A stretch of 23,350 bases of DNA from a virus. Below, piece by piece: positions 7,560 to 21,846 of this stretch; within the stretch, counting starts at the first letter, position 1; each line of letters opens with the position of its first letter. Below the pieces are notes generated by a model. That model worked only from the letters and a program-made list of their open reading frames with translations. It was not told the origin of the DNA and made no database searches. A program made the position numbers and the translations under genes. Location: the IMG/VR virus record IMGVR_UViG_3300026257_000025, positions 1 through 23,350 of that record. One strand, written 5' to 3'.

Positions 7560-8628
7560 ATTACTTGATAGAATCAAGCAAAATTCTACGATAAAGGAAA
7601 CAGATATACTGACTGAATCTAAGTTCTTTAATGAACAAGATATGATACAGACATCTGTTCCAGCAGTGAATGTTGCTTTAAGTGGGAGGTTAGACGGAGG
7701 ATTGACACCAGGTTTAACTGTATTTGCAGGACCTAGTAAACATTTTAAAACAGCGTTTGCTATGTTATTGGCAAAGTCATATTTAGACAAATATGATGAT
7801 GGTGTTGTTTTATTTTATGATAGTGAGTTTGGAGCTCCTCAGTCTTATTTTGAGACTTTTGAGATTGATACGAGCAGGGTAGTGCATAGTCCTATTTCAG
7901 ATATTGAACAATTAAAACATGATATTATGCAACAGTTAAATACTTTTGAAAGAGATGATCATGTTATGATTATTGTAGATTCTGTAGGCAACTTAGCTTC
8001 TAAGAAAGAAGTAGAAGATGCTTTAGAAGGTAAAAGTGTTGCTGATATGACAAGAGCTAAACAAATGAAGTCACTGTTTAGAATGATTACACCTCATTTA
8101 ACAATTAAAGATATACCTGCTATTGTAGTTAATCACACATATAAAGAGATAGGCCTATTCCCTAAAGATGTGGTTAGTGGTGGAACAGGCATTTACTATT
8201 CAGCAGATAACATTTTTATTATTGGTAGACGACAACAAAAAACAGGATCAGAAGTTACAGGTTATGAATTTGTAATTAATGTTGAAAAGTCCAGATTTGT
8301 AAGAGAGAAATCTAAAATCCCTGTAGAAGTTACATGGGAAGACGGAATTAGTAAATGGTCTGGTTTACTTGATATGGGATTAGCATCTGGCCATGTAATT
8401 AAACCTAGTAATGGTTGGTATCAGAAAGCAGACCCTGATACAGGAGAGATACTTCCTGAAGTTAAAGTTAGACTAAAAGATACACAGAAGAAAGAATTCT
8501 GGTTACCTATATTATCTGATAAAAGATTTACTAATTGGGTGCAGAAACAATATACAATAGGCTCTGTGGATATGATAACAGAGGAAATTAGTGATGAAGA
8601 TATCCAACAAGAATACGACAAAGTGTGA
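7552..8628 (+). CDS. uvsX: UvsX recombinase (RecA-like)
   Basis: A protein of 358 residues; T4 UvsX has 391. The Walker A region is GPSKHFKT at about 60-67, very close to the T4 form GPSKSFKS, and the Walker B region is MIIVDSVGN with Asp143. UvsX forms filaments on ssDNA and starts recombination-dependent replication. Two ATG codons follow each other at 7549 and 7552. I chose 7552 because AGGAG (7542-7546) is then at a better distance. The gene overlaps the dehydrogenase by 8 bases and the zinc-ribbon gene by 35. The order gp43, uvsX, small gene, gp41 parallels T4 (uvsX-40-41). Confidence 0.96.
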   Translation: MNKLLDRIKQNSTIKETDILTESKFFNEQDMIQTSVPAVNVALSGRLDGGLTPGLTVFAGPSKHFKTAFAMLLAKSYLDKYDDGVVLFYDSEFGAPQSYFETFEIDTSRVVHSPISDIEQLKHDIMQQLNTFERDDHVMIIVDSVGNLASKKEVEDALEGKSVADMTRAKQMKSLFRMITPHLTIKDIPAIVVNHTYKEIGLFPKDVVSGGTGIYYSADNIFIIGRRQQKTGSEVTGYEFVINVEKSRFVREKSKIPVEVTWEDGISKWSGLLDMGLASGHVIKPSNGWYQKADPDTGEILPEVKVRLKDTQKKEFWLPILSDKRFTNWVQKQYTIGSVDMITEEISDEDIQQEYDKV

Positions 8629-8752
8629 TAGGTGTGAAAAACCTATAAAGAAAAAAGATAAAGCATATTGTTTTCATAATGACGAACAAGAGGTGTATAT
8701 TTGTGCACCTTGTGTCGTTGAAGTGTTTAATGACTATAAGGATAAAGTTTAA
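8594..8752 (+). CDS. Small zinc-ribbon protein in the gene 40 position
   Basis: A 52-residue gene that overlaps uvsX by 35 bases and the gp41 start by one (TAATG). The protein reads KCDRCEKPIKKKDKAYCF near the N-terminus (residues about 10-27) and ICAPCVVEVF towards the end: two CxxC pairs about 30 residues apart, the arrangement of a treble-clef or ribbon zinc finger. GAGGA ends eight bases before the ATG at 8594, a good ribosome site. In T4 the slot between uvsX and gene 41 holds gene 40, an unrelated-looking 114-residue head assembly protein. Here the location suggests a helper of recombination or helicase loading, by inference only. Clearly coding, function unknown. Confidence 0.8.
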   Translation: MKISNKNTTKCDRCEKPIKKKDKAYCFHNDEQEVYICAPCVVEVFNDYKDKV

Positions 8753-10122
8753 TGCTTGATACAGTTATACTCGTTAATTTAATTAGGAATGAAGATTATT
8801 CTAGGATAGCTCTACCTTTTATTAAAGACGAATATTTTGGTGATGAAGAACATAAGTACGCTTTTATAAAAATTAAAGAATATATAGAAGAATATAATGT
8901 TCCTCCTACATTAGAAGCAATGTCAGTTGCATTTGATAGAGGCACAGAATCACAAAGAAAACTTCTTGGCATAATTTTTGATTATAAACAAGAGAATCAA
9001 GAATTAGATTGGCTAGTAGATCAGACAGAAAAATTCTGTAAAGATAAAGCTGTATTTAATGCAGTATTAGAAGGCATACAAATCATAGACGGTAAATCAA
9101 AGGATAAAACTCCTGACGCTTTACCTGATTTATTAACCGAAGCATTACAGGTAGGATTTGATACTAGAATAGGCCACGATTTTATTGAAGACGCTGATAA
9201 GAGAATAGAGTATTATAATAGAGTAGAGGAAAAAATTCCTTTTGATATAGAACTGTTTAATAAAATAACAGACGGTGGTTTATCAAATAAGACACTAAAT
9301 ATAGCATTAGCAGGTACTGGTGTAGGTAAATCCCTGTTTATGTGTCATATGAGCACTGCATGTTTAAAACAAGGTAAAAGAGTATTGTATATTACAATGG
9401 AAATGGCAGAAGAGAGAATAGCAGAAAGAATAGATGCTAACCTTATGGATATTACAATGGCTGCTGTCAGAGATTTAGCAAAAACGGAAGAAAGATTTAG
9501 AAATAAAATTAGCAGTCTAAATGAAGAATATGAGGGTAGATTACTTATTAAAGAATATCCTACATCATCAGCACATACAGGACATTTTAAAGCTTTGATT
9601 AATGAACTTAAATTAAAAAGAAACTTTCATCCAGACATTGTTTTTATTGATTACTTAAATATATGTGCAAGCTCTAGAATTAAAACAGGGAGTAATTCTA
9701 ACTCTTATACAATTATTAAGAGTATAGCAGAAGAAATTAGAGCACTTGCAGTAGACTTAAATGTTCCTATATTTAGTGCTACACAGACAACGAGAGCTGG
9801 TTTTGGAGCTACAGATGTATCCTTAACAGATACCTCAGAAAGTTTTGGTCTTCCAGCTACAGCAGACTTGATGTTTGCTATTATAAGTACAGATGAGTTA
9901 GAACAGAATGGCCAGTTCATGATTAAACAATTAAAAAACAGATATGCAGATCCTACATTTAACAAAAAATTTATGGTAGGTGTAGATCGTGCAAAAATGA
10001 GAATCTTTGACACAGATCAAACTTCTCCAGCATTGGGTCCTGATGAAGCATTATCAGATTCAGGACAAACCGACTCCACACCAGTTTTTGACAGAGGTAA
10101 ATACGATGATCTTAAATTTTAA
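8752..10122 (+). CDS. 41: Replicative DNA helicase gp41 (DnaB-like)
   Basis: A 456-residue hexameric helicase of the DnaB/gp41 family. The N-terminal part (1-150) is the helical domain that contacts primase. The RecA-like motor has Walker A AGTGVGKS at 187-194, Walker B with Asp300 in FIDYLN, and the motif SATQTTRAG. It unwinds the parental duplex 5' to 3' ahead of gp43. The start overlaps the previous stop by one base, with AAGGAT about eight bases upstream. The last 30 residues are Asp/Ser rich and include the start of the next gene (17-base overlap). All motor motifs are intact. Primase (gp61) is not seen in this window. Confidence 0.95.
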   Translation: MLDTVILVNLIRNEDYSRIALPFIKDEYFGDEEHKYAFIKIKEYIEEYNVPPTLEAMSVAFDRGTESQRKLLGIIFDYKQENQELDWLVDQTEKFCKDKAVFNAVLEGIQIIDGKSKDKTPDALPDLLTEALQVGFDTRIGHDFIEDADKRIEYYNRVEEKIPFDIELFNKITDGGLSNKTLNIALAGTGVGKSLFMCHMSTACLKQGKRVLYITMEMAEERIAERIDANLMDITMAAVRDLAKTEERFRNKISSLNEEYEGRLLIKEYPTSSAHTGHFKALINELKLKRNFHPDIVFIDYLNICASSRIKTGSNSNSYTIIKSIAEEIRALAVDLNVPIFSATQTTRAGFGATDVSLTDTSESFGLPATADLMFAIISTDELEQNGQFMIKQLKNRYADPTFNKKFMVGVDRAKMRIFDTDQTSPALGPDEALSDSGQTDSTPVFDRGKYDDLKF

Positions 10123-10855
10123 AGATTTAGAATTTGATGTTCTAGATAATGTTTTAGCAAAAAGATATAGTCAATTCCTTAAAGAGCATGTACATGAAAC
10201 AAAAGAGTTTTATTTCATGGGTGATAGAGAAGATGTAATTCTTGCAGAAATTGATAAGATTGTTTATATGTTAGGAAAAGAGCCTACAAGAAATATGAAC
10301 AAATTACATGAATACTTCGCAGATCACGATGACGAAGAGGAAATGTCTCGCTTGAATAATCTCATTCATTATTATGAATTAGTGATTAATAATTTTCCAC
10401 CTAGATGGGGAATGATGAATGGACATTCAACACTAGAATTATTTCCAAAAGACTATGAGTACTTTACATTGGAAAGACATCCAGGTTGGCTATATATTAG
10501 TTACCCTCATGTAGGGAAACATTTTGCCGAGATAGCCTGGAGTAACGATTATAATATAGAGGCACATCAATATGTTCCACAAGAATTTATGAGGCCAAGT
10601 TTTCACATATGGTTGGGTGATCCATTATCAGTTGAAAATATAAACTTGTTCCAACCAAGGCTACAAATGGCTCATGATAAATTAAAAACCAAATTGGATT
10701 TGCCTGATCTAGACGATCCAACACTAAGATGTGGATATATTCCGTTTGCTAAACTCAAAGATGATATAAATACTAATGACCTTACAAATTATTTTTTAAA
10801 GTGTAAGAGTAATAGTAAACATCAATGGGAGTTATTTAAGGAAGATGCCAGATAA
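10106..10855 (+). CDS. Conserved protein of unknown function
   Basis: A 249-residue protein beginning at the ATG inside the gp41 end, with GAGG eight bases upstream. A longer in-frame reading from 10007 would lie within gp41 and has no ribosome site. Notable segments are FYFMGDREDVILAEIDKI near the N-terminus, a block of Asp/Glu (ADHDDEEEM), and a C-terminal part with HPGWLYISYPHVGKHFAEI, EAHQYVPQEF and RCGYIPFAKL that look like buried, conserved strands. No signal peptide or membrane segment. It lies in the replication operon next to gp41, so a link with replication or host take-over is possible. Not recognised. Confidence 0.75.
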   Translation: MILNFKDLEFDVLDNVLAKRYSQFLKEHVHETKEFYFMGDREDVILAEIDKIVYMLGKEPTRNMNKLHEYFADHDDEEEMSRLNNLIHYYELVINNFPPRWGMMNGHSTLELFPKDYEYFTLERHPGWLYISYPHVGKHFAEIAWSNDYNIEAHQYVPQEFMRPSFHIWLGDPLSVENINLFQPRLQMAHDKLKTKLDLPDLDDPTLRCGYIPFAKLKDDINTNDLTNYFLKCKSNSKHQWELFKEDAR

Positions 10856-11198
10856 AAGAGAAAATTTCGTAGAGATAAGTTTAGACGAATATGAAGAATT
10901 AAAAGCGCAAATACCTAGCGATGAACCAGAAGCAGTAGATGCAAAACCTTGGTGGAGTGCACCTGACGATAGAGGATGGATTTGGATTGCACCAGAGTAT
11001 TTTAGTAGATGGAGGTTATTTCCTCGTGCATTTATTAGCATGTATATCTACTTGTTATTTAAGGTAGTAACTTGGTTCATGAATTTACCAGCACCTATAG
11101 CAGAACAGTCTGCTCTAGTAAGTGTTATTGTAGGAGCTGGAGCAGCATGGTTTGGGTTGTATGTAAATAGTACATCAACAGAGCATAAGAAGGGATAA
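10845..11198 (+). CDS. Two-helix membrane protein, holin-like topology
   Basis: A 117-residue protein with an acidic N-terminal domain (1-50, WWSAPDDRGWIWIAP), then a Trp/Arg-rich stretch (SRWRLFPR) and two probable membrane helices at about 61-79 and 89-107, the second rich in Gly and Ala (SVIVGAGAAWFGLYV), ending in a short charged tail. Topology and size fit a class II-like holin or another inner-membrane effector. The position in an early-type cluster, far from the spanin pair, makes the holin role uncertain. It overlaps the previous gene by 11 bases and is followed after one base by another membrane protein, so the two may act together. Confidence 0.7.
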   Translation: MPDKRENFVEISLDEYEELKAQIPSDEPEAVDAKPWWSAPDDRGWIWIAPEYFSRWRLFPRAFISMYIYLLFKVVTWFMNLPAPIAEQSALVSVIVGAGAAWFGLYVNSTSTEHKKG

Positions 11199-11199
11199 C

Positions 11200-11613
11200 A
11201 TGCCTGAGATAATTTTATCAGATTTCTATGTAGAGTTCATAGGCTTTTTACTAACCTTAATCGTAGGGTTGAGTATTAGGGACGCAGCTACATCTTTTGT
11301 TAAGGGCGCAAAGTTTAGATTAAACAAAGCATTCTTAGAAGGTGATAAAGTTATATTAGACGGCCAGCCTGCACTTATTGTTAAAATAGGTTTAGGCGAA
11401 ACAGTTTTCGGAATCTATGGAGAAGATGGATATACATGGAGGTATGTTCCGAATACTAGAATAGAGTTTTTAAAGTTAGAGAAAATAGTAGATCCTGATT
11501 TGCACAGGGATACAGATCAAGAAAGAGCACAAAGATTAGTTGATTCTTTACAAGATGCTAACATTAGAAAAAATGGAGATGAAATTGCAAAAATTAAAAA
11601 TGGAGATAAGTGA
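11200..11613 (+). CDS. Miniature MscS-like membrane protein
   Basis: A 137-residue protein with one hydrophobic helix (about 9-26) followed by a segment that lines up with E. coli MscS from the pore helix TM3 through the beta domain. The landmarks are GLSIRDAATS (MscS GLALQGSLSN), FLEGDKVILDG at 45-55 (MscS FRAGEYVDLGG), then a Thr, DG at 76-77 and VPNTRI at 83-88 (MscS DGK and IPNGKI). TM1, TM2 and the C-terminal vestibule of MscS are missing; the tail is polar and charged. It may form a small pore or act on host mechanosensitive channels. AGGGAT precedes the ATG. The MscS relation is my reading of the pattern and is not database-checked. Confidence 0.65.
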   Translation: MPEIILSDFYVEFIGFLLTLIVGLSIRDAATSFVKGAKFRLNKAFLEGDKVILDGQPALIVKIGLGETVFGIYGEDGYTWRYVPNTRIEFLKLEKIVDPDLHRDTDQERAQRLVDSLQDANIRKNGDEIAKIKNGDK

Positions 11614-11843
11614 TGCCCCCAAAGTTCAAGCCAAGCGCTAAAGAAAATATTAGAGGTAAAGATGGTAGATTAACCGGAAGAACCCAAATCAAACATTATT
11701 ATTTGAAACAAACCTCAACCGAGGAAATAATAAAGGCCATAAATACAGGCAAGAAGAAACATAGAAATAAATTTGTTAATGAATTAAACAGACGTGGAGT
11801 GAAATTAGTATGGAAGACGGAAGAAGAGATAGCGACGGCGTAG
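11613..11843 (+). CDS. Small basic protein, unknown function
   Basis: A 76-residue Lys/Arg-rich protein. The ATG at 11613 overlaps the previous TGA by one base, with GGAG 8-11 bases upstream; the GTG at 11610 in the same frame is less likely. The N-terminus PKFKPSAKENIRGKDGRLTG is basic and flexible; the rest (TSTEEIIKAINTGKKKHRNK, FVNELNRRGVKLVW) looks helical. Similar small proteins occur, as far as I recall, in marine T4-like phages with no assigned role. Nucleic-acid binding is plausible from composition. It overlaps the next gene by 34 bases. Confidence 0.7.
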   Translation: MPPKFKPSAKENIRGKDGRLTGRTQIKHYYLKQTSTEEIIKAINTGKKKHRNKFVNELNRRGVKLVWKTEEEIATA

Positions 11844-12433
11844 TAGGTTTAGGTGGACATTCAGATGTTCCTCTAGATGAGACCAAAAAAGCACACATTC
11901 AAAAGCCTGGTGCATTAAAAATATATGATGGCGCTTTGAGTCAGGATTTTTCAGATGATCTTATTGAAATATTTAATAAGAATGAGGCAAGTGTCGTAAC
12001 TGAAGAAAACGAAAACTACAAATACCAAGAATACAACTACACACTTAATCACAAAGATGAAGAAATCCATGAGAGATTAATGGCTCATATAGGCGAACTG
12101 TATAAGCATTATCTTAAAGATCTTAATTTGGGTAATATGATTAAAGTGTCAGGGTTCGAAGAACTTAAAATCAAAAAGTTTGAAGAAAAAGATGGATTCT
12201 GTAATTTATATTTAGATACCATAGATCATGCCAGTGCTATTCGAGCAGTATCTTTTGTCTTCTTTTTAAATGAGAATGAGGGTAATATAGATTTCCCTGT
12301 ACAGAAAATAGGTGTTGAACCTGTAAAAGGTAGGGTAATAATACACCCAAGCGGCTGGGAATACCCTAAAACACACCACAAATCCAACTTTCACGACAAA
12401 TATATACTAGAAACTTTCTTACATTTAGCCTAA
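11810..12433 (+). CDS. 2OG-Fe(II) oxygenase-like protein, altered active site
   Basis: A 207-residue protein. Residues 36-205 follow the oxygenase fold seen in phage P4H-like proteins: LKIYDGALSQDFSDDLIEIF, LKIKKFEEKDGF, a strand VSFVFFLN (147-154), GVEPVKGRVIIHPS (168-181) and a possible distal ligand His189/His190. Where the first HxD motif is expected, the sequence is Tyr-Leu-Asp (134-136): the first iron-binding His is replaced by Tyr. The region GGETEF is also changed to GNIDFP. It may be inactive, use another ligand (Asp139/His140 are near), or have become a binding protein. The start codon lies inside the previous gene and the first 33 residues are probably disordered. Confidence 0.65.
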   Translation: MEDGRRDSDGVVGLGGHSDVPLDETKKAHIQKPGALKIYDGALSQDFSDDLIEIFNKNEASVVTEENENYKYQEYNYTLNHKDEEIHERLMAHIGELYKHYLKDLNLGNMIKVSGFEELKIKKFEEKDGFCNLYLDTIDHASAIRAVSFVFFLNENEGNIDFPVQKIGVEPVKGRVIIHPSGWEYPKTHHKSNFHDKYILETFLHLA

Positions 12434-12471
12434 GTTACTGATATCACAGAGGAAAAGATTTGAAAAAGTGC

Positions 12472-12500
12472 TTGACTTATGGTCCGCCAGAGTGCATAAT
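12472..12500 (+). promoter_or_regulatory. Sigma70-type promoter (P2), with dyad
   Basis: TTGACT at 12472-12477, 17-base spacer, CATAAT at 12495-12500. Half-sites GACTT (12474-12478) and GAGTG (12490-12494) are again 11 bases apart, with GGT at spacer positions 4-6. The gene at 12533 starts about 25 bases after the expected transcript start. Confidence 0.75.
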
Positions 12501-12532
12501 GTATGTATATTAAATAAAAAGGTATAAAGATT

Positions 12533-12910
12533 ATGACAGAATGGAACGATTTATCAGAAAAAGACCAATTACTTACTTATATAAGTGATACTCATAAAGA
12601 TGCTTACGGGTTTAGACCTAGAGGCCTTTACAATGATATGTCTGTTCCACAGCTTAAGGTTGAACTTGATAGACTATGTGAGGCAGCTTCTGAAGAAGCA
12701 GAACGCATACATAATATTGAGAAACAATCTTGGTTGGATCTTAAAAGTCATTATGCCGATTTAGTTAATATGGGAGCAAAAGACTTTAGACAAGCTCTTG
12801 CTTGGGACATGCAAGCTGAAGATGTGGAATCATGGGACTTTGGGTTCTATTGTTACCACAAAAGGATTGCATACTCTAAGCAAAGGATATTGGAGAGGTT
12901 AGCAGCTTAA
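12533..12910 (+). CDS. Small soluble protein, unknown function
   Basis: A 125-residue protein directly behind promoter P2. The N-terminal part contains LLTYISDTHKDAYGFRPRGLYNDMSV, a pattern I associate with small phage and plasmid proteins without a known role. The rest is probably helical (ELDRLCEAASEEAERIHNI, KRIAYSKQRILERLAA) with several Trp and Tyr residues. No membrane segment, zinc motif or enzyme motif is visible. It is a single-gene unit: promoter P2 in front, a weak terminator over the stop codon and promoter P3 right behind. An early host-directed role is a guess. Confidence 0.7.
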   Translation: MTEWNDLSEKDQLLTYISDTHKDAYGFRPRGLYNDMSVPQLKVELDRLCEAASEEAERIHNIEKQSWLDLKSHYADLVNMGAKDFRQALAWDMQAEDVESWDFGFYCYHKRIAYSKQRILERLAA

Positions 12911-12920
12911 TTGCTGTTTT
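12901..12920 (+). terminator. Weak intrinsic terminator candidate
   Basis: AGCAGC at 12901-12906 can pair with GCTGTT at 12913-12918 (one G-U pair) around a six-base loop that contains the stop codon, and it runs into TTTT at 12917-12920. The stem is short. Its position between a gene end and promoter P3 supports it. Confidence 0.35.
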
Positions 12921-12934
12921 GGTCCTATTAAGTG

Positions 12935-12963
12935 TTGACTCTTGGTGTACAAGAGTCTATAAT
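12935..12963 (+). promoter_or_regulatory. Sigma70-type promoter (P3) with perfect palindrome in the spacer
   Basis: TTGACT at 12935-12940, 17-base spacer, TATAAT at 12958-12963. A perfect 8-base inverted repeat, GACTCTTG (12937-12944) and CAAGAGTC (12950-12957), spans from inside the -35 box to the base before the -10 box. Such a dyad is a likely operator for a dimeric regulator. The two-gene unit 12997-13576 follows; its second gene encodes a winged helix-turn-helix protein, a candidate for the regulator. Confidence 0.85.
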
Positions 12964-12996
12964 ATGAGTATAAATTAGAAATGGAGAAACGCTGTT

Positions 12997-13323
12997 ATGA
13001 CAGATCAACTATTTAAGTATGCAGGCTATAGCGTGACTGAAAAAGGCCAAACAAAGGCAAGATTCGGAAACGATATGGTTTCACGCATAAAGAAACTTAC
13101 GGCTAAAGGCAACCAAGATACTTGGTTCGCTGAATTGCCGGAAGCTATGACCAAGAAGCAAGCATCTAATTTCTTACTTGAGAGGGAAGACATTAAGTCT
13201 AACTTTGATGTGAGAGATGCTCTGCAGAAGGTTGTATATAGGAATGTGCCTAAAGGAACAACTCGTGTTGTTAACGCTGGCGCATCAACTGGCAATTCTG
13301 CCAACAATAATATGGAGAGCTAA
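12997..13323 (+). CDS. Small protein, unknown function
   Basis: A 108-residue basic protein, first gene behind promoter P3. It begins TDQLFKYAGYSVTEKGQTKA and has a central segment with ELPEAMTKKQASNFLLER that may form a helix-turn-helix-like hairpin, then a low-complexity C-terminus of Asn, Ala, Ser and Gly (NAGASTGNSANNN). GGAG lies about 10 bases before the ATG. The next gene begins two bases after its stop. No family recognised. Operon mate and size suggest a partner or co-regulated product of the DNA-binding protein that follows. Confidence 0.7.
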   Translation: MTDQLFKYAGYSVTEKGQTKARFGNDMVSRIKKLTAKGNQDTWFAELPEAMTKKQASNFLLEREDIKSNFDVRDALQKVVYRNVPKGTTRVVNAGASTGNSANNNMES

Positions 13324-13324
13324 T

Positions 13325-13576
13325 ATGGCTAATCGTAAAGTGAGCCAACAGCAAAAAGTTTTAAACTTTTTAGCTAATGGCAACAGCTTAAGCAATGCAG
13401 TAGCAACGCATAAGCTAAAAGTAAATAGACTTCCTGCTAAGATTAATGTTCTTAGAGGACAGGGATATCCTATTTACACGAACACAAACAATAGAGGCAA
13501 TGCCACCTATCGTTTGGGTACGCCTAGTAGAGCAATGGTAGCAGCAGCATTTACTGCTGGTGTTTCATTCAGCTAA
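13325..13576 (+). CDS. Winged helix-turn-helix DNA-binding protein
   Basis: An 83-residue protein. Residues 8-45 read as a three-helix winged domain: QQQKVLNFLANGNSLSNAVA, HKLKVNRLPAKINVLRGQG, then a beta wing YPIYTNTNNRGNATYRLG. This is the pattern of small phage HTH proteins in which the helix after the turn contacts DNA. GGAGAG lies six bases before the ATG at 13325; an in-frame ATG at 13217 is inside the previous gene and is not supported. The C-terminus (AMVAAAFTAGVSFS) is Ala-rich. Because promoter P3 carries a perfect palindrome, self-repression is a natural hypothesis; P1 and P2 carry degenerate copies of the same dyad. DNA binding is likely, the target is inferred. Confidence 0.75.
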   Translation: MANRKVSQQQKVLNFLANGNSLSNAVATHKLKVNRLPAKINVLRGQGYPIYTNTNNRGNATYRLGTPSRAMVAAAFTAGVSFS

Positions 13577-14873: not shown

Positions 14874-15305
14874 ATGAGGTTAGATTACAAAGACTGTGGC
14901 AAAATTGGCATTACCTGTAGCACATTTGATTTGCTACATGCAGGGCATGTTGTAATGTTAGAGGAGGCCAAAAGACATTGTGATTACCTAATAGCAGCGC
15001 TGCAAGTAGATCCTACTGTTGACAGAAAAGACAAGAACAAGCCAATTCAAACCATAGTAGAGAGACAAATACAATTAGCAGGTGTAAAATTTGTAGATGA
15101 GATAGTCATGTACAATACTGAAAAAGACTTAGAGGACTTATTTTTAACCTTACCTATTAATGTAAGAATTATAGGCGAAGAATATAAAAGTAAGGAATTT
15201 ACAGCAAAGGCAATATGCCATCAAAGGAAAATTGAAATAATTTATAATAAGAGAGATCATACTTTTAGTAGCACCTCTCTAAGAAAACGCATAGGAGCAA
15301 AATAA
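14874..15305 (+). CDS. Cytidylyltransferase-like nucleotidyltransferase (TagD type)
   Basis: A 143-residue protein of the HxGH superfamily, the size of glycerol-3-phosphate cytidylyltransferase (TagD, about 130). The signature HAGHV at 22-26 follows GITCSTFDLLH, the RKDKNKP loop follows as in TagD, and STSLRKRI near the C-terminus is the second nucleotide-binding motif (ISSTxxR). It should join a phosphorylated small molecule to CMP or AMP, giving an activated precursor. The glycosyltransferase at 15754 in the same gene run suggests a role in glycan or polyol modification of phage or host surface. The exact substrate cannot be read from sequence. GGAG lies eight bases before the ATG. Confidence 0.88.
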   Translation: MRLDYKDCGKIGITCSTFDLLHAGHVVMLEEAKRHCDYLIAALQVDPTVDRKDKNKPIQTIVERQIQLAGVKFVDEIVMYNTEKDLEDLFLTLPINVRIIGEEYKSKEFTAKAICHQRKIEIIYNKRDHTFSSTSLRKRIGAK

Positions 15306-15499: not shown

Positions 15500-15818
15500 G
15501 ATTTGGGAATCAAAGAATCCTACTAATCCTGATTTTCCTATGTGGCATCCTGTAGGAAGTAATGAGTATGTTATAGGATATTTAGAGTTACCAGATGATA
15601 TTGAGCCCTCTATAAAAGTGATAGGTGAATATGTTACAAAGTTCCATCACATGTTAGAAGGCCAAACGAGACCTGGTAGTGTCGAGATATTTTCTGGTTA
15701 CGAGATTTACTTCAAAGACGGATTAACACATAACGAAGCATTTCAACTACAGAATGGAGATACAATTGACTTCCCAGCAGAAGACGTCACTTTACTCACG
15801 AAGCAAGAAGAATCATAG
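15468..15818 (+). CDS. Small protein, unknown function
   Basis: A 116-residue acidic protein with GGAG seven bases before the ATG. The sequence alternates short strands and loops (KIVASTKIWESKNP, NEYVIGYLELPDDIEP, SVEIFSGYEIYFKDG, GDTIDFPAEDVTLLT), suggesting a small all-beta domain. It overlaps the upstream gene by 32 bases and the glycosyltransferase by 65. No catalytic motif seen. Its place between two sugar-type enzymes suggests the same pathway, by context only. Confidence 0.6.
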   Translation: MQELKIVASTKIWESKNPTNPDFPMWHPVGSNEYVIGYLELPDDIEPSIKVIGEYVTKFHHMLEGQTRPGSVEIFSGYEIYFKDGLTHNEAFQLQNGDTIDFPAEDVTLLTKQEES

Positions 15819-16545
15819 GTTAACTGTTGGTTATTCTTATTACGAAGAGCCTGATAGGCTGTGGAAACAAATAGACACTTGGCAATTATGGCCAGGTAAT
15901 GTTGATATATTCATTGTAGACGATGGCTCAAATCATTATCCTGCCATTGATATCCTCAAAGATTTAAAATTCGAAGATTGGCAACCTACCTTACAACTCT
16001 GGAAAGTAACCAGAGACTTAGGGTTTAATTCACACGGTTGTAGAAATTTAATAGCAAAATACGCACAAACAGATGTAATACAATTCTGTGATATGGACAT
16101 GTTCTTTCACGGTGCTGATATTGCTAGAATAAAAAGTACGATTGTAGAACAAACAGATATTATGCACCACCGATTATACAGAACTTTTAGTCAAACTCAT
16201 GTGCCACACCCTGGCCATTATAATTGTTTTGCTATACATAAAGATTTGTTTTGGAAAGCAGGTGGGTATGATGAGTCTTTTACAGGACATCACTATGGAG
16301 ATAGAGAATTTATTGAGAGAGTAAATGCTGTTGAAGGCACAAGAAAATGTAAATCTGAGGTTACTATGACATTAGATAGAAAGGGAAGGCACGGCTCTGT
16401 AACAGATGGCCTAGAACATAATATCTATACACCAGGTGATGATGAGTTCTTTTTAGCAGCAGCTGATATAGAGGAAGTTAAAAAACTTGTAGGAACTAAG
16501 ACAAAGAGATTAGATTTTCCATTCATAAGAATAGTAGACTTATAA
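15754..16545 (+). CDS. GT-A family glycosyltransferase
   Basis: Up to 263 residues. VDDGSN at 55-60 is the GT2 nucleotide-sugar loop, Asp113-Met-Asp115 the metal-binding DxD, and GGYDESFTGHHYGDREF a GGxDE-type acceptor/catalytic segment as in galactosyltransferase-like members. It should transfer a sugar from a UDP- or GDP-sugar. The acceptor could be host or phage surface glycan or modified DNA bases; the sequence does not say. The start is unsure: ATG 15754 lies 65 bases inside the previous gene without a good ribosome site, while TTG 15766 has GGAGAT just before it; conservation begins near residue 23. A late promoter box overlaps its stop codon. Confidence 0.85.
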   Translation: MEIQLTSQQKTSLYSRSKKNHRLTVGYSYYEEPDRLWKQIDTWQLWPGNVDIFIVDDGSNHYPAIDILKDLKFEDWQPTLQLWKVTRDLGFNSHGCRNLIAKYAQTDVIQFCDMDMFFHGADIARIKSTIVEQTDIMHHRLYRTFSQTHVPHPGHYNCFAIHKDLFWKAGGYDESFTGHHYGDREFIERVNAVEGTRKCKSEVTMTLDRKGRHGSVTDGLEHNIYTPGDDEFFLAAADIEEVKKLVGTKTKRLDFPFIRIVDL

Positions 16546-16548
16546 ATA
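16541..16548 (+). promoter_or_regulatory. Late promoter box, five bases before an ATG
   Basis: TATAAATA followed by CTGGT and then the ATG at 16554. With T4 spacing the first transcribed base would be the A of ATG, so the mRNA would be leaderless. No Shine-Dalgarno sequence lies before this gene, in line with that. The same layout occurs at 19293 and at the right edge of the window. Confidence 0.7.
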
Positions 16549-16553
16549 CTGGT

Positions 16554-17723
16554 ATGCGCTTTACTGAATTTTTAAAAGAAGAAAAAGAAGAAGATAAACT
16601 GAAGCATCTAGAGCATGTGGAGGATCATGTAATCCATGCTGGACACAAAGGCTTTGGACACGCATTCCATACTATTAATGATGTTCATAATGACTTACAA
16701 GGTAAAGGTAATTCTCAGACACAAACTACAATTAAATATGATGGCAGCCCTGCTATTATATTTGGTAAACACCCAGAGAATGGTAAGTTCTTTGTTTCAT
16801 CTAAATCAGCATTTAATAAAACACCTAAGATAAACCATACGCATGAGGACATAGCAAAGAACCATGGACACGCACCTGGTCTTATGAAGAAGTTAAGTGC
16901 AGCATTAGATCACGCACATAAAATAGAACCTAATGGTATATATCAAGCAGACATCATGCACTCTGGAGATGTTAAACATGATAAAAAGAACAATAGAGTT
17001 GACTTTACACCAAATACAATTACATATCATGCACCAGCAGATTCTGATCATGGTAAAGCAGCTAAAAATTCTAAACTAGGCCTAGCAGTTCATACAAAGT
17101 ATGAAGGTAAGACTATAGATACTTTAAAAGCAACTCATGGTGGAATAGATCATGGGGACTTTAAAAAACATAAAGATGTTCATATGATGGATGCTAACCA
17201 CGATACTAGCACACATAGGTATAGCTTAGAAGATCGTAAACAAGTAGATCATCACTTAGAACAAGCAGTAGCACATTTTAAAGCAACACCTAAAGAACAT
17301 CACGACACAGTTCAAAAACATGCAGTGGCTAAGAAAACATATATAAACCACACTATACGAACAGGCGAACAATATTCACATGAAGGTTTCGTAGCACATG
17401 CCTCATCTAAACATCAAAAGAAGATAGATGGTGTTAAAACAGATGCAGCTAAGGCAAGGCATCAAACAACTATGGATAACACAATAGGTCATATAAATAA
17501 GAATAAAGAACACTTTGAAGGCCCTATGAACATGCACAAGCATTTACAGGCAGCAAAGAATATTATTACAAACACCATGTCTCAAAAGTCACAATGGGGG
17601 CATGAAATAGCGGGAGCTAAAACTAAACCAGAAGGTTTTGTTGCTATAAGAAACGGCAGACCTTCTAAATTTGTAGATAGAAACGAATTTAGTGCAGCGA
17701 ATTTTAATAAGGACACTAAGTAA
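16554..17723 (+). CDS. KxDG-motif nucleotidyltransferase-like protein, probable capsid-targeted protein
   Basis: A 389-residue His-rich protein (about 42 His). Lys61 in KYDGSPAIIFG is the motif I of DNA/RNA ligases and capping enzymes, where Lys takes up AMP or GMP. NGIYQADIM at 127-135 could be motif III, PEGFVA at 359-364 motif IV and Lys372 motif V. I recall related proteins in marine T4-like phages as an uncharacterised family (DUF6267-like). The N-terminus MRFTEFLKEE resembles the T4 capsid-targeting peptide MKTYQEFIAEA, with a possible cut after LKE. A late promoter box precedes it. Inference: a virion-borne ligase-like enzyme. Activity and substrate are unproven. Its stop shares a base with the next start. 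Confidence 0.75.
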   Translation: MRFTEFLKEEKEEDKLKHLEHVEDHVIHAGHKGFGHAFHTINDVHNDLQGKGNSQTQTTIKYDGSPAIIFGKHPENGKFFVSSKSAFNKTPKINHTHEDIAKNHGHAPGLMKKLSAALDHAHKIEPNGIYQADIMHSGDVKHDKKNNRVDFTPNTITYHAPADSDHGKAAKNSKLGLAVHTKYEGKTIDTLKATHGGIDHGDFKKHKDVHMMDANHDTSTHRYSLEDRKQVDHHLEQAVAHFKATPKEHHDTVQKHAVAKKTYINHTIRTGEQYSHEGFVAHASSKHQKKIDGVKTDAAKARHQTTMDNTIGHINKNKEHFEGPMNMHKHLQAAKNIITNTMSQKSQWGHEIAGAKTKPEGFVAIRNGRPSKFVDRNEFSAANFNKDTK

Positions 17724-18346
17724 TGGCAGAAAAACCAGATAAGCATATAGTATTTTCTTACGGTAGGATGAATCCTCCCACTGCTGGCCATTCAAAAGTA
17801 GTAGACAAAGTTAAATCTCACGCAGACTCAATTGGTGCTAACCACGCAGTAGTAGTTAGCCATTCTCAAAACAAAAAAGACAATCCTTTACATCACGAAC
17901 ATAAGAAAGAGTATCTTAAACATATACACCCAGATGTAAACTTTGAACACTCAACAAAAGAACACCCTCACTTCTTAGCACAATTAAAGAAGTTTAATCA
18001 AGAAGGACATACACACGCAACAATGGTTGTTGGTAGTGATAGGGTAAAAGATTTTAAGTCTCTTGCTAAGAAGTATAATGGCAAAGAGTACAATTATAAG
18101 AAAATTAATATACTTTCAGCAGGCCACCGAGATCCCGATGCTGAAGGTGTTGCAGGAATAAGCGGGACAAAAATGAGAAATCATGCTAGCAATAATGATT
18201 TTAAATCTTTTAAGGCAGGATTACATCCTAACCACAGCGATGATCACGCTAAGAGATTATTTAAAGCGACAAGGCAAGGCATGAGCTTACAAAAAGAGGA
18301 AAGGGGAATGTTAGATTTCAAAACATTCTTAACAGAACAATGTTAA
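17723..18346 (+). CDS. HxGH-superfamily nucleotidyltransferase (NMNAT-like)
   Basis: A 207-residue protein with the adenylyltransferase signature GRMNPPTAGH at 14-23 and the second motif GISGTKMR in the C-terminal half; the stretch SHSQNKKDNPLHHEHK is typical of phage members. Such enzymes transfer AMP or CMP to a phosphate group, as in NAD or coenzyme A synthesis. It is His-rich (about 20 of 207). The C-terminal end, MLDFKTFLTEQC, resembles the FxxFLxE peptide found at the N-terminus of its neighbour, as if the targeting tag were at the other end. It is translated right after the KxDG protein (one shared base), so the two may act in one reaction path. Substrate unknown. Confidence 0.85.
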   Translation: MAEKPDKHIVFSYGRMNPPTAGHSKVVDKVKSHADSIGANHAVVVSHSQNKKDNPLHHEHKKEYLKHIHPDVNFEHSTKEHPHFLAQLKKFNQEGHTHATMVVGSDRVKDFKSLAKKYNGKEYNYKKINILSAGHRDPDAEGVAGISGTKMRNHASNNDFKSFKAGLHPNHSDDHAKRLFKATRQGMSLQKEERGMLDFKTFLTEQC

Positions 18347-18582
18347 TATTAATTAGATTAGGAATAGCCTGTGTAACAGCAGTATTTGGAAATGCTTTTA
18401 GTAAGTGGTTTCTTAATACGAAAGTTGGTGCATGGTTTCAACTTAAAATAGATAAATTAATGAACTTTTTAGCAGAAAGATATGATATTGAAATTGCTAA
18501 GAAGGAAGCTAAATGGAGATCAGACTATCCTTTATTAGCTGAAAGAATAGATAAACTTGAGAAAGAGGTCTATAAGAAATGA
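18340..18582 (+). CDS. Small membrane-associated protein, unknown
   Basis: An 80-residue protein whose start overlaps the previous stop by seven bases. Residues 1-17 (MLILIRLGIACVTAVFG) are hydrophobic, a short membrane anchor or signal-like helix; the rest is amphipathic and charged, ending in a coiled-coil-like LLAERIDKLEKEVYKK. It sits directly before the spanin pair and overlaps it by four bases, so it may belong to the lysis cassette. It is not a recognisable holin. Function unknown. Confidence 0.65.
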   Translation: MLILIRLGIACVTAVFGNAFSKWFLNTKVGAWFQLKIDKLMNFLAERYDIEIAKKEAKWRSDYPLLAERIDKLEKEVYKK

Positions 18583-18947
18583 GTAAGATACTGATAGGTA
18601 TTATAGTAGCCATGGTTTTAGCATTTGGTGGTTATTATTGGTTAACAGAAAAACGACTTACAGTTTTAACAGAGAATAATGCTAAACTAACTATTGCTGC
18701 TCAGACAAACCAACAGACAATAGATAAGCTCACAGAAGACTATGAGCAACAACAGACGCTAAATAAAGAGTTAGGTGTAAAACTTAAAGCTGCAGAAGCT
18801 TATGGAGATAACTTGGCCAAGAAATTTAGAGAACATGATTTAACAATGTTAACCTCGAGGAAACCAGGGTTAATTGAACGGAGAGTGAATAGTGCAACAC
18901 AGAAATTACTTGACGATATGGAGTCTAGTACTGCTACTAGCCCTTAG
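18579..18947 (+). CDS. Inner-membrane spanin (i-spanin, Rz-like)
   Basis: A 122-residue protein with one N-terminal membrane helix (KILIGIIVAMVLAFGGYYWL, residues 3-22) and a periplasmic coiled coil (NNAKLTIAAQTNQQTIDKL onward, about 33-85), then a conserved-looking tail (SRKPGLIERRVNSATQKLLDD). This is the i-spanin plan. The next gene overlaps its 3' end by 56 bases and encodes a lipoprotein, the classic overlapping Rz/Rz1 arrangement. Together they join the inner and outer membranes and fuse them in the last step of lysis of a Gram-negative host. The start is an ATGA overlap with the preceding gene. Confidence 0.8.
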   Translation: MSKILIGIIVAMVLAFGGYYWLTEKRLTVLTENNAKLTIAAQTNQQTIDKLTEDYEQQQTLNKELGVKLKAAEAYGDNLAKKFREHDLTMLTSRKPGLIERRVNSATQKLLDDMESSTATSP

Positions 18948-19287
18948 TGGTTGTAGTTTAATACCAAAAGAAGTACAAGTACAGACAAAGTTCGTTGAAA
19001 AACAAATACCAATACAAGGCCACCCTAAAGGTTTAAATTTATTTCCTTTACAGTTTTATGCTGTAACAGAAGAAAATTTTGAAGAATTTAAAGAAAGATT
19101 TGGAAAAGAAAATGGTGGTAATATGGTATATTTTGCCTTAAGTGTTCCAGATTATGAGAACCTATCCCTTAACATGGGCGAATTAAAACGATATATAGAA
19201 CAACAGAAGACTATTATAGTGTATTACGAGCAGTCCATTACAGGCATTAAAGCAGAAGTTACAATAGAAGAAGAAGTAAAAGACTAA
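18892..19287 (+). CDS. Outer-membrane lipoprotein spanin (o-spanin, Rz1-like)
   Basis: A 131-residue lipoprotein. The GTG start at 18892 has GGAG eight bases upstream; TTG 18910 is an alternative. The signal peptide (VLLLALSGC) ends in a clear lipobox, so Cys21 would carry the lipid. The mature part has short Pro-containing linkers (LIPKEVQVQ, IPIQGHPKG), a globular portion and an acidic tail. It is longer than Rz1 (about 60) but has the place and overlap expected for an o-spanin partner of the gene at 18579. It should span the periplasm from the outer membrane. Confidence 0.8.
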   Translation: MQHRNYLTIWSLVLLLALSGCSLIPKEVQVQTKFVEKQIPIQGHPKGLNLFPLQFYAVTEENFEEFKERFGKENGGNMVYFALSVPDYENLSLNMGELKRYIEQQKTIIVYYEQSITGIKAEVTIEEEVKD

Positions 19288-19292
19288 GGATG

Positions 19293-19300
19293 TATAAATA
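19293..19300 (+). promoter_or_regulatory. Late promoter box, five bases before an ATG
   Basis: TATAAATA, then AGAGT, then ATG at 19306: the same spacing as at 16541. The next upstream purine-rich stretch (AAGGA at about 19286) is too far from the ATG to serve as a ribosome site. Predicted leaderless late transcript. Confidence 0.7.
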
Positions 19301-19305
19301 AGAGT

Positions 19306-21846
19306 ATGAAGACTTTTTTAGAAGCTAGAAAGATGTATGACGGTGGCCGAGCAGCTAAGACAGGCTGGAATTGTGGTGACTGTGGTGCAGAGAAAAACCG
19401 TAGCGATCAATGTAGATCCTGTGGTTCACCAGCGAGATACCATAGAAACGATCCAGTAAAAAATCCACATTTACAGAAAGAAGATCTAAAACAAGACTTC
19501 CAAAAAGCAGCTGATGCCGGATCTAACCTGCGCAAATTTATCAAGAGTAAGGCCAAAAAGTTTCAAGATTCAGACACAGCTAAACAAATAAGACAAAAGA
19601 AAACAACAGCAGGTGTTAAACCTATAAAAGAATCTAGTGGTTCAGTGGATAGAATGGCTGATACATGGAACGATCATGCAGACCATCCACATCCTAAAGT
19701 CCAAAAGCATATTAAGAAAGCAGAGGCAGCATACAATAAAAAAGATCACGAAGGCTTTTTTCACCACACACAGAGAGCAGCAGATCATGCACACACTCTA
19801 AGCCAAAATAAAAAGAAATTTGGAATTAAAGAAGGTGCCGCTAAGAATACTCTTGATATATATCAGGCACACGCAGATGCTAAGAAGGCTAAGAAGAAAA
19901 AATTTAGAGACATAAGAAGATCTGCTAACATGCCTGCAGGTTATGAAAACCTTAAAGCTGGAAACGAACTAGAAGGCAACGAACTCACAGAAGATTACAG
20001 CGATCATAAGAAAAACAAATATGAACTTTATAGCGATGACAAAACAGGCCATCCAAACAAAAAAGCACATGATGATATCCATAAAGCTGTAACGCATCCT
20101 TCAGGAGAGCTTAAACATGTAGAAGCTGCTCAGAAGAAACATTCTAAACATGGCGCTGAAGACACAGCTTCAAGAGAACAAATACACAAACACTTTACAA
20201 AACACCATGCAGATAAAGAAGGTAAGACATGGAGTTATGTTAAAGAAAATAAAATAGTAGAAATGGTATCAGGCTTTAGAAAGGGAGATGAGAGTGTTAG
20301 TAAAAAAGGAACCCTTCATAAAAGTTCTCACATAGCACCTGATAGAGATGGTGGTAAAGTAGCTGATGCCTTAAACAAACATGAACGCTTAAAAACAATT
20401 AAGCAAGTACACAAAAAACTTTTGCAAAAGGAAGGTTACTTTAAATCTTTAGCTACTAAAAATGCTGAAAAACAAAGACTAGAACTTTTGAAAAAATCTA
20501 AAGATAATGTTAAAAAGACAACTACTGTGGCAAAACCAAATAGAGGCATGGCAGAAGAAAACTTAGACGAACTTTCAATGGAACTAAAGGGAAGACATGC
20601 AAGAGCTGCTATTAAACAAACAGGTCAAATGCAGAAACTTAAAGACGATCCTAAAACACCTAGTTCAGTAAAGAAAGCAGCTTCTAACACTATCCAGAAA
20701 AGATCAAAAGGATTAGATAAAACTTGGGGTGCTCAAAACGAAGACTTAGCTTCTGGAAGGCCAGCGAAAAAACCAGTATCAAGTAACTTATTAAAGCAAA
20801 GAGCTAGAGATAACGAAAAAGCATTAGCAACAGGCTTTATGAAACTCTCACCTAAAGAAAGAGCTAAAGAATCTAAAAGATTATCAGAAGGTGGAGTAGG
20901 AGGACTTGTTCCATTATCAAAAGCTAAAGAAGCAGTTAAAGGCATGGAAAAGAGCATGGGTCTTAAAAAGGCAGGTAAAACTGCTAAAGGCGGAACTTTA
21001 TATAAAAGAACAAAAGTTAAAGAATCAACTAGGGATAATTATAATCCGGTTGTTTCAGATAAGAGAACAAAAGAAAAACTTAAAAAGGCTGGGTTACCTT
21101 CAGAGTCACCTAAAATAAATGAAGCTAAGAAACCTATCGTACATTTTAAAGGTAAAGATAGTCTTAAAATGGTTAAGATTAAATACAACAAACCTATTAA
21201 AACAAAAGTAACAGACATTGGACCTGGCGGAAAAGAAACAGTTAGAAAAGATTGGTCTGAAGAATATGGTAATGTTGCACAAGACTATTTACAAGAACTT
21301 TCACCTAAAACAGTAAGTTCTTATCAAAAGAAAGCAGGTAAACAATATAGAGATCTTAAAAAGACTACTCCTTCACGACAAGGAATAGAAAATGCTTATC
21401 ACCAAGGATATACCTCAGACAAAGAATACGATAAACAACACGACGACAGAGATAAACTACAAAAGCGTGGTAAAGGACTTGCAGCTTCTAAAGGCAAAGG
21501 CATAAAAGAAGATAAAGGAAGAGGACCTACAGGCATAGCTTATACATTAACTCCAGGCCATCCTGATGCAGAAAATCCTAAAACAAGAGAGAAATATCCT
21601 GAAAGACAAACACCTGAATATAAGGCTAAATGGAAGAAGAATAGTAAACCTGGTCTAGGACAAAATATAGGCCTTAAAAATCCAATGAAGGAAGAACAAC
21701 AAAGAGTGGTAGAGTCATTAAGCAAACTAATGTCAACTGGAATGAAGAATGTTAAAAAGTTTCAAGATTCAGATACAGCCAAACAAATAAGACAAAAGAA
21801 AACAACAGCTGGAGTTAAACCAGCAGCAACAGAAAAAAAAAGATAA
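19306..21846 (+). CDS. Lys-rich mosaic virion protein with N-terminal zinc finger, probable polyprotein
   Basis: An 846-residue, very basic, low-complexity protein. The N-terminus MKTFLEARKM resembles a capsid-targeting peptide. Residues 21-39 form a zinc finger, W-x-C-x2-C-x9-C-x2-C (Cys23, 26, 36, 39), close to the RanBP2 type. The rest is a chain of segments, His-rich up to about residue 320, separated by sites of the form [IL]xE plus a small or acidic residue: IKE-S 107-109, IKE-G 174-176, LTE-D 227-229, LDE-L 420-422, LSE-G 526-528, INE-A 604-606, IKE-D 733-735. T4 prohead protease gp21 cuts at such [IL]xE sites. A 23-residue peptide occurs twice (84-106, 817-839). Probably a head-internal protein processed during maturation; inferred. 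Confidence 0.75.
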   Translation: MKTFLEARKMYDGGRAAKTGWNCGDCGAEKNRSDQCRSCGSPARYHRNDPVKNPHLQKEDLKQDFQKAADAGSNLRKFIKSKAKKFQDSDTAKQIRQKKTTAGVKPIKESSGSVDRMADTWNDHADHPHPKVQKHIKKAEAAYNKKDHEGFFHHTQRAADHAHTLSQNKKKFGIKEGAAKNTLDIYQAHADAKKAKKKKFRDIRRSANMPAGYENLKAGNELEGNELTEDYSDHKKNKYELYSDDKTGHPNKKAHDDIHKAVTHPSGELKHVEAAQKKHSKHGAEDTASREQIHKHFTKHHADKEGKTWSYVKENKIVEMVSGFRKGDESVSKKGTLHKSSHIAPDRDGGKVADALNKHERLKTIKQVHKKLLQKEGYFKSLATKNAEKQRLELLKKSKDNVKKTTTVAKPNRGMAEENLDELSMELKGRHARAAIKQTGQMQKLKDDPKTPSSVKKAASNTIQKRSKGLDKTWGAQNEDLASGRPAKKPVSSNLLKQRARDNEKALATGFMKLSPKERAKESKRLSEGGVGGLVPLSKAKEAVKGMEKSMGLKKAGKTAKGGTLYKRTKVKESTRDNYNPVVSDKRTKEKLKKAGLPSESPKINEAKKPIVHFKGKDSLKMVKIKYNKPIKTKVTDIGPGGKETVRKDWSEEYGNVAQDYLQELSPKTVSSYQKKAGKQYRDLKKTTPSRQGIENAYHQGYTSDKEYDKQHDDRDKLQKRGKGLAASKGKGIKEDKGRGPTGIAYTLTPGHPDAENPKTREKYPERQTPEYKAKWKKNSKPGLGQNIGLKNPMKEEQQRVVESLSKLMSTGMKNVKKFQDSDTAKQIRQKKTTAGVKPAATEKKR
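19555..19622 (+). repeat. Direct repeat, copy 1 (68 bases)
   Basis: This copy matches 21754-21821 at 64 of 68 positions. It encodes residues 84-106 of the gene at 19306, starting KKFQDSDTAK and ending TTAGVKP. The four differences are all silent, so the peptide is conserved. Confidence 0.9.
21754..21821 (+). repeat. Direct repeat, copy 2 (68 bases)
   Basis: Second copy, encoding residues 817-839, close to the C-terminus of the same protein. All four base differences from copy 1 are at third codon positions (GAC/GAT, GCT/GCC, GCA/GCT, GGT/GGA). Confidence 0.9.

Follow-up and report, generated by a model that had tools for sequence, protein, structure and literature searches.

The 23,350-base virus record analysed here (the window), which comes from a marine T4-like phage, encodes a protein of the family DUF6267 and, adjoining it, a TxGH-type nucleotidyltransferase (the transferase). 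On balance we think it likely that the two are expressed late as an enzyme pair, are loaded into the phage head and, once injected into the host, act on nucleic-acid ends. DUF6267 has the motif order and the closest-ranking predicted fold of the ligase superfamily and begins, just behind a T4-type late promoter, with a peptide that resembles the T4 capsid targeting sequence (CTS). In cyanophage relatives it is the transferase that carries this tag, and in three of them the tagged transferase was detected in virions.

The enzyme pair

The pair lies downstream of T4-like replication genes (DNA polymerase, UvsX and a DnaB-type helicase). The open reading frame (ORF) list of the window contains both genes at the positions given in an earlier first-pass annotation, with a 1-base overlap:

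16554–17723, plus strand: DUF6267 protein, 389 aa, predicted covalent nucleotidyltransferase of the ligase/capping superfamily (Pfam PF19782, E 1.4e-95; invariant motifs; fold matches)
17723–18346, plus strand: TxGH-type nucleotidyltransferase, 207 aa (Pfam CTP_transf_like, E 9e-7, above cut-off; phrog_3041, E 1.5e-61)

A single PHROG profile, phrog_455, spans both ORFs and hinted at fusions of the two. In eight phage sequences (seven viral contigs and S-PM2) DUF6267 and the transferase are indeed fused into a single chain, which is good evidence of a shared task; the S-PM2 fusion (locus L151, 3914–5689) has no tag. Neither protein of the window has a Pfam or PHROG match to an ADP-ribosyltransferase domain such as that of T4 Alt. 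Megablast with the whole window found no near phage. DUF6267 relatives are widespread, with 467 phage records containing one; a literature search found no paper mentioning DUF6267, and nothing in the literature found recognises the family as ligase-like.

DUF6267 has the motifs of covalent nucleotidyltransferases and a predicted fold that ranks nearest to theirs

Residues K61, D63, G64, P66, K84, D133, Y158, E360, G361, V363, K372 and R376 were unvarying among 16 homologues and again in a larger set of 84 non-redundant ones, which takes in cyanophage and pelagiphage copies. In the alignment, including its compact members, the invariant residues are arranged as motifs I, III, IIIa, IV and V are in covalent nucleotidyltransferases, bearing out the earlier description of a KxDG protein with Lys61 and possible motifs III–V. 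The features of the window protein are as follows, assigned by invariance in alignments except for the insertion, which was drawn from the model of the window protein and the alignment:

16734–16745, plus strand: motif I, K61-Y-D-G64, with the predicted nucleotide-accepting lysine
16803–16805, plus strand: invariant Lys84
16950–16952, plus strand: motif III, invariant Asp133 (GIYQAD)
17004–17027, plus strand: motif IIIa, FTPNTITY, Tyr158 invariant
17226–17579, plus strand: helical insertion, residues 225–342, shorter in compact cyanophage relatives
17628–17642, plus strand: motif IV, PEGFV, E360-G361 invariant
17667–17681, plus strand: motif V, KFVDR, K372 and R376 invariant

The model of the window protein had a predicted local distance difference test score (pLDDT) of 83, with residues 9–17, just behind the tag, disordered. 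In the first structure search, with this long protein, RNA ligases ranked top but the geometry was poor, and we therefore modelled a compact cyanophage-type relative with AlphaFold, which gave a confident model (pLDDT 90; predicted template modelling score 0.85). Ligases or capping enzymes made up 43 of the 50 best PDB matches of the compact model, including all of the first nine: the best was Trl1 tRNA ligase (E 0.029), and others were DNA ligases III, I and IV, archaeal DNA ligases, Naegleria RNA ligase, an RNA editing ligase and capping guanylyltransferases. Among viral predicted structures, many RNA ligases were found beyond the DUF6267 family itself. In the structure comparison with RNA ligases that the first-pass annotation had proposed, the superfamily ranks first, but each match is individually weak; as no single match is significant, the claim of a ligase fold rests on the ranking together with the invariant motifs. 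We consider the assignment of DUF6267 as a ligase-superfamily (KxDG) nucleotidyltransferase a supported prediction.

In the models, no OB-fold or other domain follows motif V, and DUF6267 ends 13 residues past R376 with one C-terminal helix. Around the KxDG stretch, Pfam RNA_lig_T4_1 matched one of 47 members with E 0.0011, below the cut-off; Peptidase_M57, Big_6 and similar Pfam matches, likewise weak, below cut-off and confined to one or two of the 47, were set aside as chance. A sequence search of the window DUF6267 against the PDB gave no match, a search with the profile of the first DUF6267 alignment gave coiled-coil artefacts only, and the second alignment gave nothing useful either.

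In some relatives the DUF6267 gene is broken between motifs III and IIIa, giving two ORFs (L043, 641–1927; L067, 3308–5027; L068 and L069), with no gap in L043 and about 450 bases between the parts in L067–L069. Overlapping split frames occur in L059–L061 and L065. These are candidates for an intron, an inserted gene or a true split.

A capsid targeting-like tag behind a late promoter

Two elements mark the start of the DUF6267 gene:

16541–16548, plus strand: T4-type late promoter TATAAATA, ending 5 nt before the DUF6267 ATG
16554–16583, plus strand: CTS-like tag MRFTEFLKEE, predicted cleavage after FLKE (motif conserved in homologues; T4 CTS positions in PMC9026906)

In the ten-residue CTS of T4 IPIII, targeting depends mainly on residues 4 and 7, and processing on residues 8 and 10 (PMC9026906). 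The spacing F..FL.E reproduces these four functional positions (aromatic 4 and 7, aliphatic 8, Glu 10), and with F3, F6, L7 and E9 as its key residues the DUF6267 peptide is as close to the T4 targeting peptide as had been proposed. The sequence of the tag also includes a putative cleavage site of the (L/I)xE type for the prohead protease.

By shuffling, the chance rate of [FY]..[FY][LIM].E in the first 15 residues is 0.14%, and under a strict pattern the N-terminal motif is present on 135 of 148 DUF6267 copies. Positions between the key residues vary freely among 76 distinct tag versions; the profile of these versions is descriptive only, because the pattern itself selects the key positions. 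Within the window, F3-TE-F6-L7-K-E9 of DUF6267 and F199-KT-F202-L203-T-E205 at the C-terminus of the transferase are the only N- or C-terminal F..FL.E motifs. The 170-kb genome of a relative (the contig of L009) contains exact M.{0,7}F..FL.E a single time, on DUF6267.

The tag is found on DUF6267 in 46/46 copies from the window's clade and on the transferase N-terminus in 0/39, whereas in cyanophage-type loci the figures are 0/78 and 55/56, respectively. The fused proteins of the seven contigs have one N-terminal copy each. Judged from these sequences, the tag moves between partners in evolution, being carried by DUF6267, the transferase or the fusion.

The spacing of exactly 5 nt between promoter and ATG is kept in 26 distinct homologous upstream regions, and the same arrangement precedes the gp25 baseplate gene in the 170-kb relative. 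T4 promoter geometry would place the transcription start at the ATG or close to it, which makes a leaderless message probable. The position of TATAAATA and its conserved spacing support the first-pass suggestion of a late, probably leaderless message.

A second TATAAATA, again with 5-nt spacing, precedes an 846-aa lysine-rich ORF (19306–21846; region 19293–21846) that starts MKTFLEARK. This ORF has no Pfam or PHROG family and is probably another late tagged polyprotein.

The transferase partner and its C-terminal motif

The HxGH-type transferase of the first-pass annotation is present with its signatures, which in the alignment keep T, G and H, and S, K and R, respectively, invariant:

17780–17791, plus strand: T20-A-G-H23, (H/T)xGH signature
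18158–18178, plus strand: ISGTKMR, ISxTxxR-type signature
18317–18346, plus strand: FKTFLTE/QC, CTS-like or cleavage motif at a module junction, in 33/33 complete transferases of the clade

The catalytic motifs of both enzymes are invariant across very divergent copies, which implies retained activity. This makes it very improbable that the tagged proteins mainly fill the head core as structural or scaffold material, comparable to internal proteins and with degenerate enzymatic folds, even though several neighbouring genes encode tagged polyproteins that are long and rich in lysine and have no known domains (e.g. 19306–21846).

Behind the catalytic domain, F..FL(L).E occurs in all 33 complete transferases of the clade; it is followed by the protein end within eight residues in 15, by a DUF6321-like module (assigned by Pfam) in 14 and by a CWDGY module in 4. 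In L118 the DUF6321-type protein is a separate ORF that starts MKTFSEWLEEE, and only QC remains behind the motif in the window. From these sequences, tagged downstream genes were probably fused to the transferase, leaving the motif as an internal cleavage site, with the downstream module lost in the window; the motif may still also target. Tags at opposite ends of the pair, as first proposed, are present in that F..FL.E occurs at both ends, but the design is not symmetrical, as the C-terminal copy looks like a module-junction cleavage site.

The genes around DUF6267 in relatives bear on the substrate. In 21 loci a gene for a HAD phosphatase is found close to DUF6267; it is tagged in L097, L141 and L146 and matches acid phosphatase B and HAD_SAK_1 weakly. 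A P-loop kinase of the Zeta_toxin/AAA_33 type is a separate gene in HTVC008M and L080 and is fused to the transferase in L132 (7161–8801), L134, L138, L143 and L145, where consecutive genes are tagged. Since the combination of ligase, kinase and phosphatase is reminiscent of systems that heal and seal ends, nucleic-acid ends are favoured as the substrate, our best guess from sequence and analogy and the least secure step of the proposal. Kinase and phosphatase genes are absent from the ORFs flanking the pair within the window, as judged from the ORF list, Pfam and PHROG.

A system centred on NAD, in which an NMNAT-like (nicotinamide mononucleotide adenylyltransferase) partner makes NAD and DUF6267 uses it as AMP donor or protects NAD pools from host defence, would also draw on known features: NAD-dependent ligases use KxDG, and transferase–kinase fusions exist in relatives, as in NadR. 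The authors of a cyanophage study name the relatives NMNAT (PMC9602691). However, the transferase scored 14.9 bits against the NMNAT-specific model NCBIfam TIGR00482, far below the cut-off of 112, its nearest PDB relatives by profile are phosphopantetheine adenylyltransferases (E 0.05), and the listed matches of the kinase include Zeta_toxin and AAA_33 but no NadR-kinase family. We therefore regard an NAD-centred system as improbable; the NAD link of the first-pass annotation comes down to a name, and the published names cytidylyltransferase and NMNAT should be read as superfamily names only.

Other genes flank the pair. A HldE/TagD-like nucleotidyltransferase (14874–15305) and a family 2 glycosyltransferase (15754–16545) precede it and are kept in about 50 related loci. 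Directly 3′ (18340–19287) are a small ORF with a hydrophobic N-terminus and then Rz-like inner and outer spanin genes (PHROG lysis families).

Tagged proteins in the virions of relatives

The relation between tag and packaging was examined in cyanophage S-CREM2, using its annotated genome and tabulated virion proteome (PMC10665884). The exact motif occurs in the first 15 residues of three of 219 proteins, a SAM hydrolase, an APH-like kinase and the cytidylyltransferase, each of which was detected in the virion (Fisher p=0.013). With a relaxed motif, widened after the data were seen, six of seven are virion proteins (p=0.0008); virion proteins are also longer, which favours detection. The only exact-motif protein of S-SCSM1 is its transferase gp91, again a virion protein (PMC9602691), and the S-SM1 transferase T4-GC190, which carries the tag, was found in virions (PMC3037559). 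The same study reports that the cytidylyltransferase was not found in virions of S-PM2, where it is the untagged DUF6267 fusion. The untagged DUF6267 proteins of S-CREM2 (gp87) and S-SCSM1 (gp257) are on neither virion list.

Thus, in cyanophages the transferase is the packaged partner, being tagged and virion-detected while DUF6267 is untagged and off the lists. By analogy, DUF6267 itself is probably packaged in the window's clade, as predicted from its tag; because the cyanophage copies are untagged and absent from two virion lists, such packaging would be clade-specific. In the accessible parts of the S-SM1, S-SCSM1 and S-CREM2 papers, detection is not connected with the tag or with DUF6267.

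SSCSM1_90, a virion protein adjoining the S-SCSM1 transferase that was suspected to be DUF6267, is not; the real one is gp257. The S-CREM2 record also has, at 7704–13331 (L153), a virion-detected Cas9-like gp12 with FASFMAE at residues 19–25, a gp13 that starts MKDLHSFLTEQ and a kinase gp14 that starts MKRFDAFLTEE, all three probably further packaged cargo. S-CREM2 gp156 (L073, 7013–7723) is virion-detected and matches NTP_transf_2 (Pol beta-type nucleotidyltransferase) weakly.

Discussion

Several points weigh against a packaged, ligase-like pair. The OB-fold after motif V that classical DNA ligases need is absent from DUF6267, Foldseek E-values reach 0.029 at best, with none below 0.001 and template modelling scores of at most about 0.31, and hhalign against the narrow T4 Rnl2 family (29 relatives) gave no match. 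Kinase and phosphatase are not in the window. Cyanophage DUF6267 lacks the tag, and its gene can be distant from that of the transferase, no report of DUF6267 in virions was found in the literature, and the virion detections come from S-CREM2, S-SCSM1 and S-SM1 only, outside the window's clade; those who published the cyanophage proteomes, among them the authors of PMC9602691, caution that non-structural proteins present in abundance may be carried along when virions are purified.

The pair might instead act only intracellularly and late, for example in NAD or nucleotide metabolism or on phage RNA, with the N-terminal peptide as a docking helix between phage proteins. The lack of a tag on cyanophage DUF6267, its absence from the S-CREM2 and S-SCSM1 virion lists and possible carry-over of the transferases would suit this explanation. 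It leaves aside, however, that the tag reproduces four functional T4 CTS positions, that in S-CREM2 it marks otherwise unrelated proteins (SAM hydrolase, kinase and transferase), all virion-detected, and that late promoters of the same spacing also serve a baseplate gene; we consider it rather unlikely.

For the injected pair that we prefer, the sequence points to a T4-type late promoter from which DUF6267 and the overlapping transferase are expressed on one leaderless message. The F..FL.E tag would bring its protein into the scaffolding core, and cleavage after FLxE by the prohead protease would release the enzyme inside the head, as inferred from the T4 CTS rule and the proteomes of relatives. 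The enzymes would then enter the cell with the DNA. DUF6267, by its motifs and predicted fold, would form a Lys61–nucleotide (probably AMP) intermediate and, jointly with the TxGH nucleotidyltransferase, pass the nucleotide to a phosphorylated end, most likely of RNA or DNA. Our best guess at the task is the sealing or protection of nucleic-acid ends damaged at the start of infection, with RNA-end sealing favoured.

The pair resembles the T4 internal proteins and Alt in its short N-terminal peptide with aromatic-x-x-aromatic-aliphatic-x-Glu spacing, its late expression and its predicted cargo enzymes unrelated to the shell. Here, however, the cargo would be a ligase-superfamily protein and a TxGH nucleotidyltransferase rather than a nuclease inhibitor or ADP-ribosyltransferase, and the second partner has its motif at the C-terminal end or module junction. 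The virion-detected transferases of cyanophages S-SM1 (T4-GC190), S-SCSM1 and S-CREM2 are homologous and share the F..FL.E tag, but there the N-terminal tag is on the transferase and DUF6267 (T4-GC71) is untagged, whereas here it is on DUF6267. With ATP- and NAD-dependent ligases and mRNA-capping enzymes (Trl1, Naegleria RNA ligase, REL1, DNA ligases I/III/IV), DUF6267 has motifs I, III, IIIa, IV and V in common, in the same order, and its predicted fold ranks closest to theirs; it differs in having no OB-fold or C-terminal domain after motif V and a helical insertion between IIIa and IV, and the sequence similarity is below curated cut-offs. Finally, the HAD phosphatase (weak HAD_SAK_1) and P-loop kinase in the operon of relatives recall healing and sealing by T4 Pnkp and Rnl1 and the Swiss Army Knife RNA repair proteins, although both lie outside this window and T4 repair includes nothing that corresponds to the TxGH transferase.

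More tentatively, and with more doubt than belief, T4-like phages of sea and fresh water may pack and inject a capsid-tagged end-processing kit whose tag passes between partners. The kit would comprise DUF6267, the TxGH nucleotidyltransferase and, in relatives, the HAD phosphatase and P-loop kinase, so that RNA or DNA ends would be repaired or protected from the first moment of infection.

These results give a testable identity to DUF6267, a widespread family of unknown function, and propose a rule, that an N-terminal F..FL.E behind a late promoter predicts enzymes inside the heads of marine T4-like phages. Should the pair be injected, its sealing or nucleotidyl-transfer activity would be available before any phage gene is expressed, which would bear on how these phages survive early RNA- and DNA-cutting host defences.
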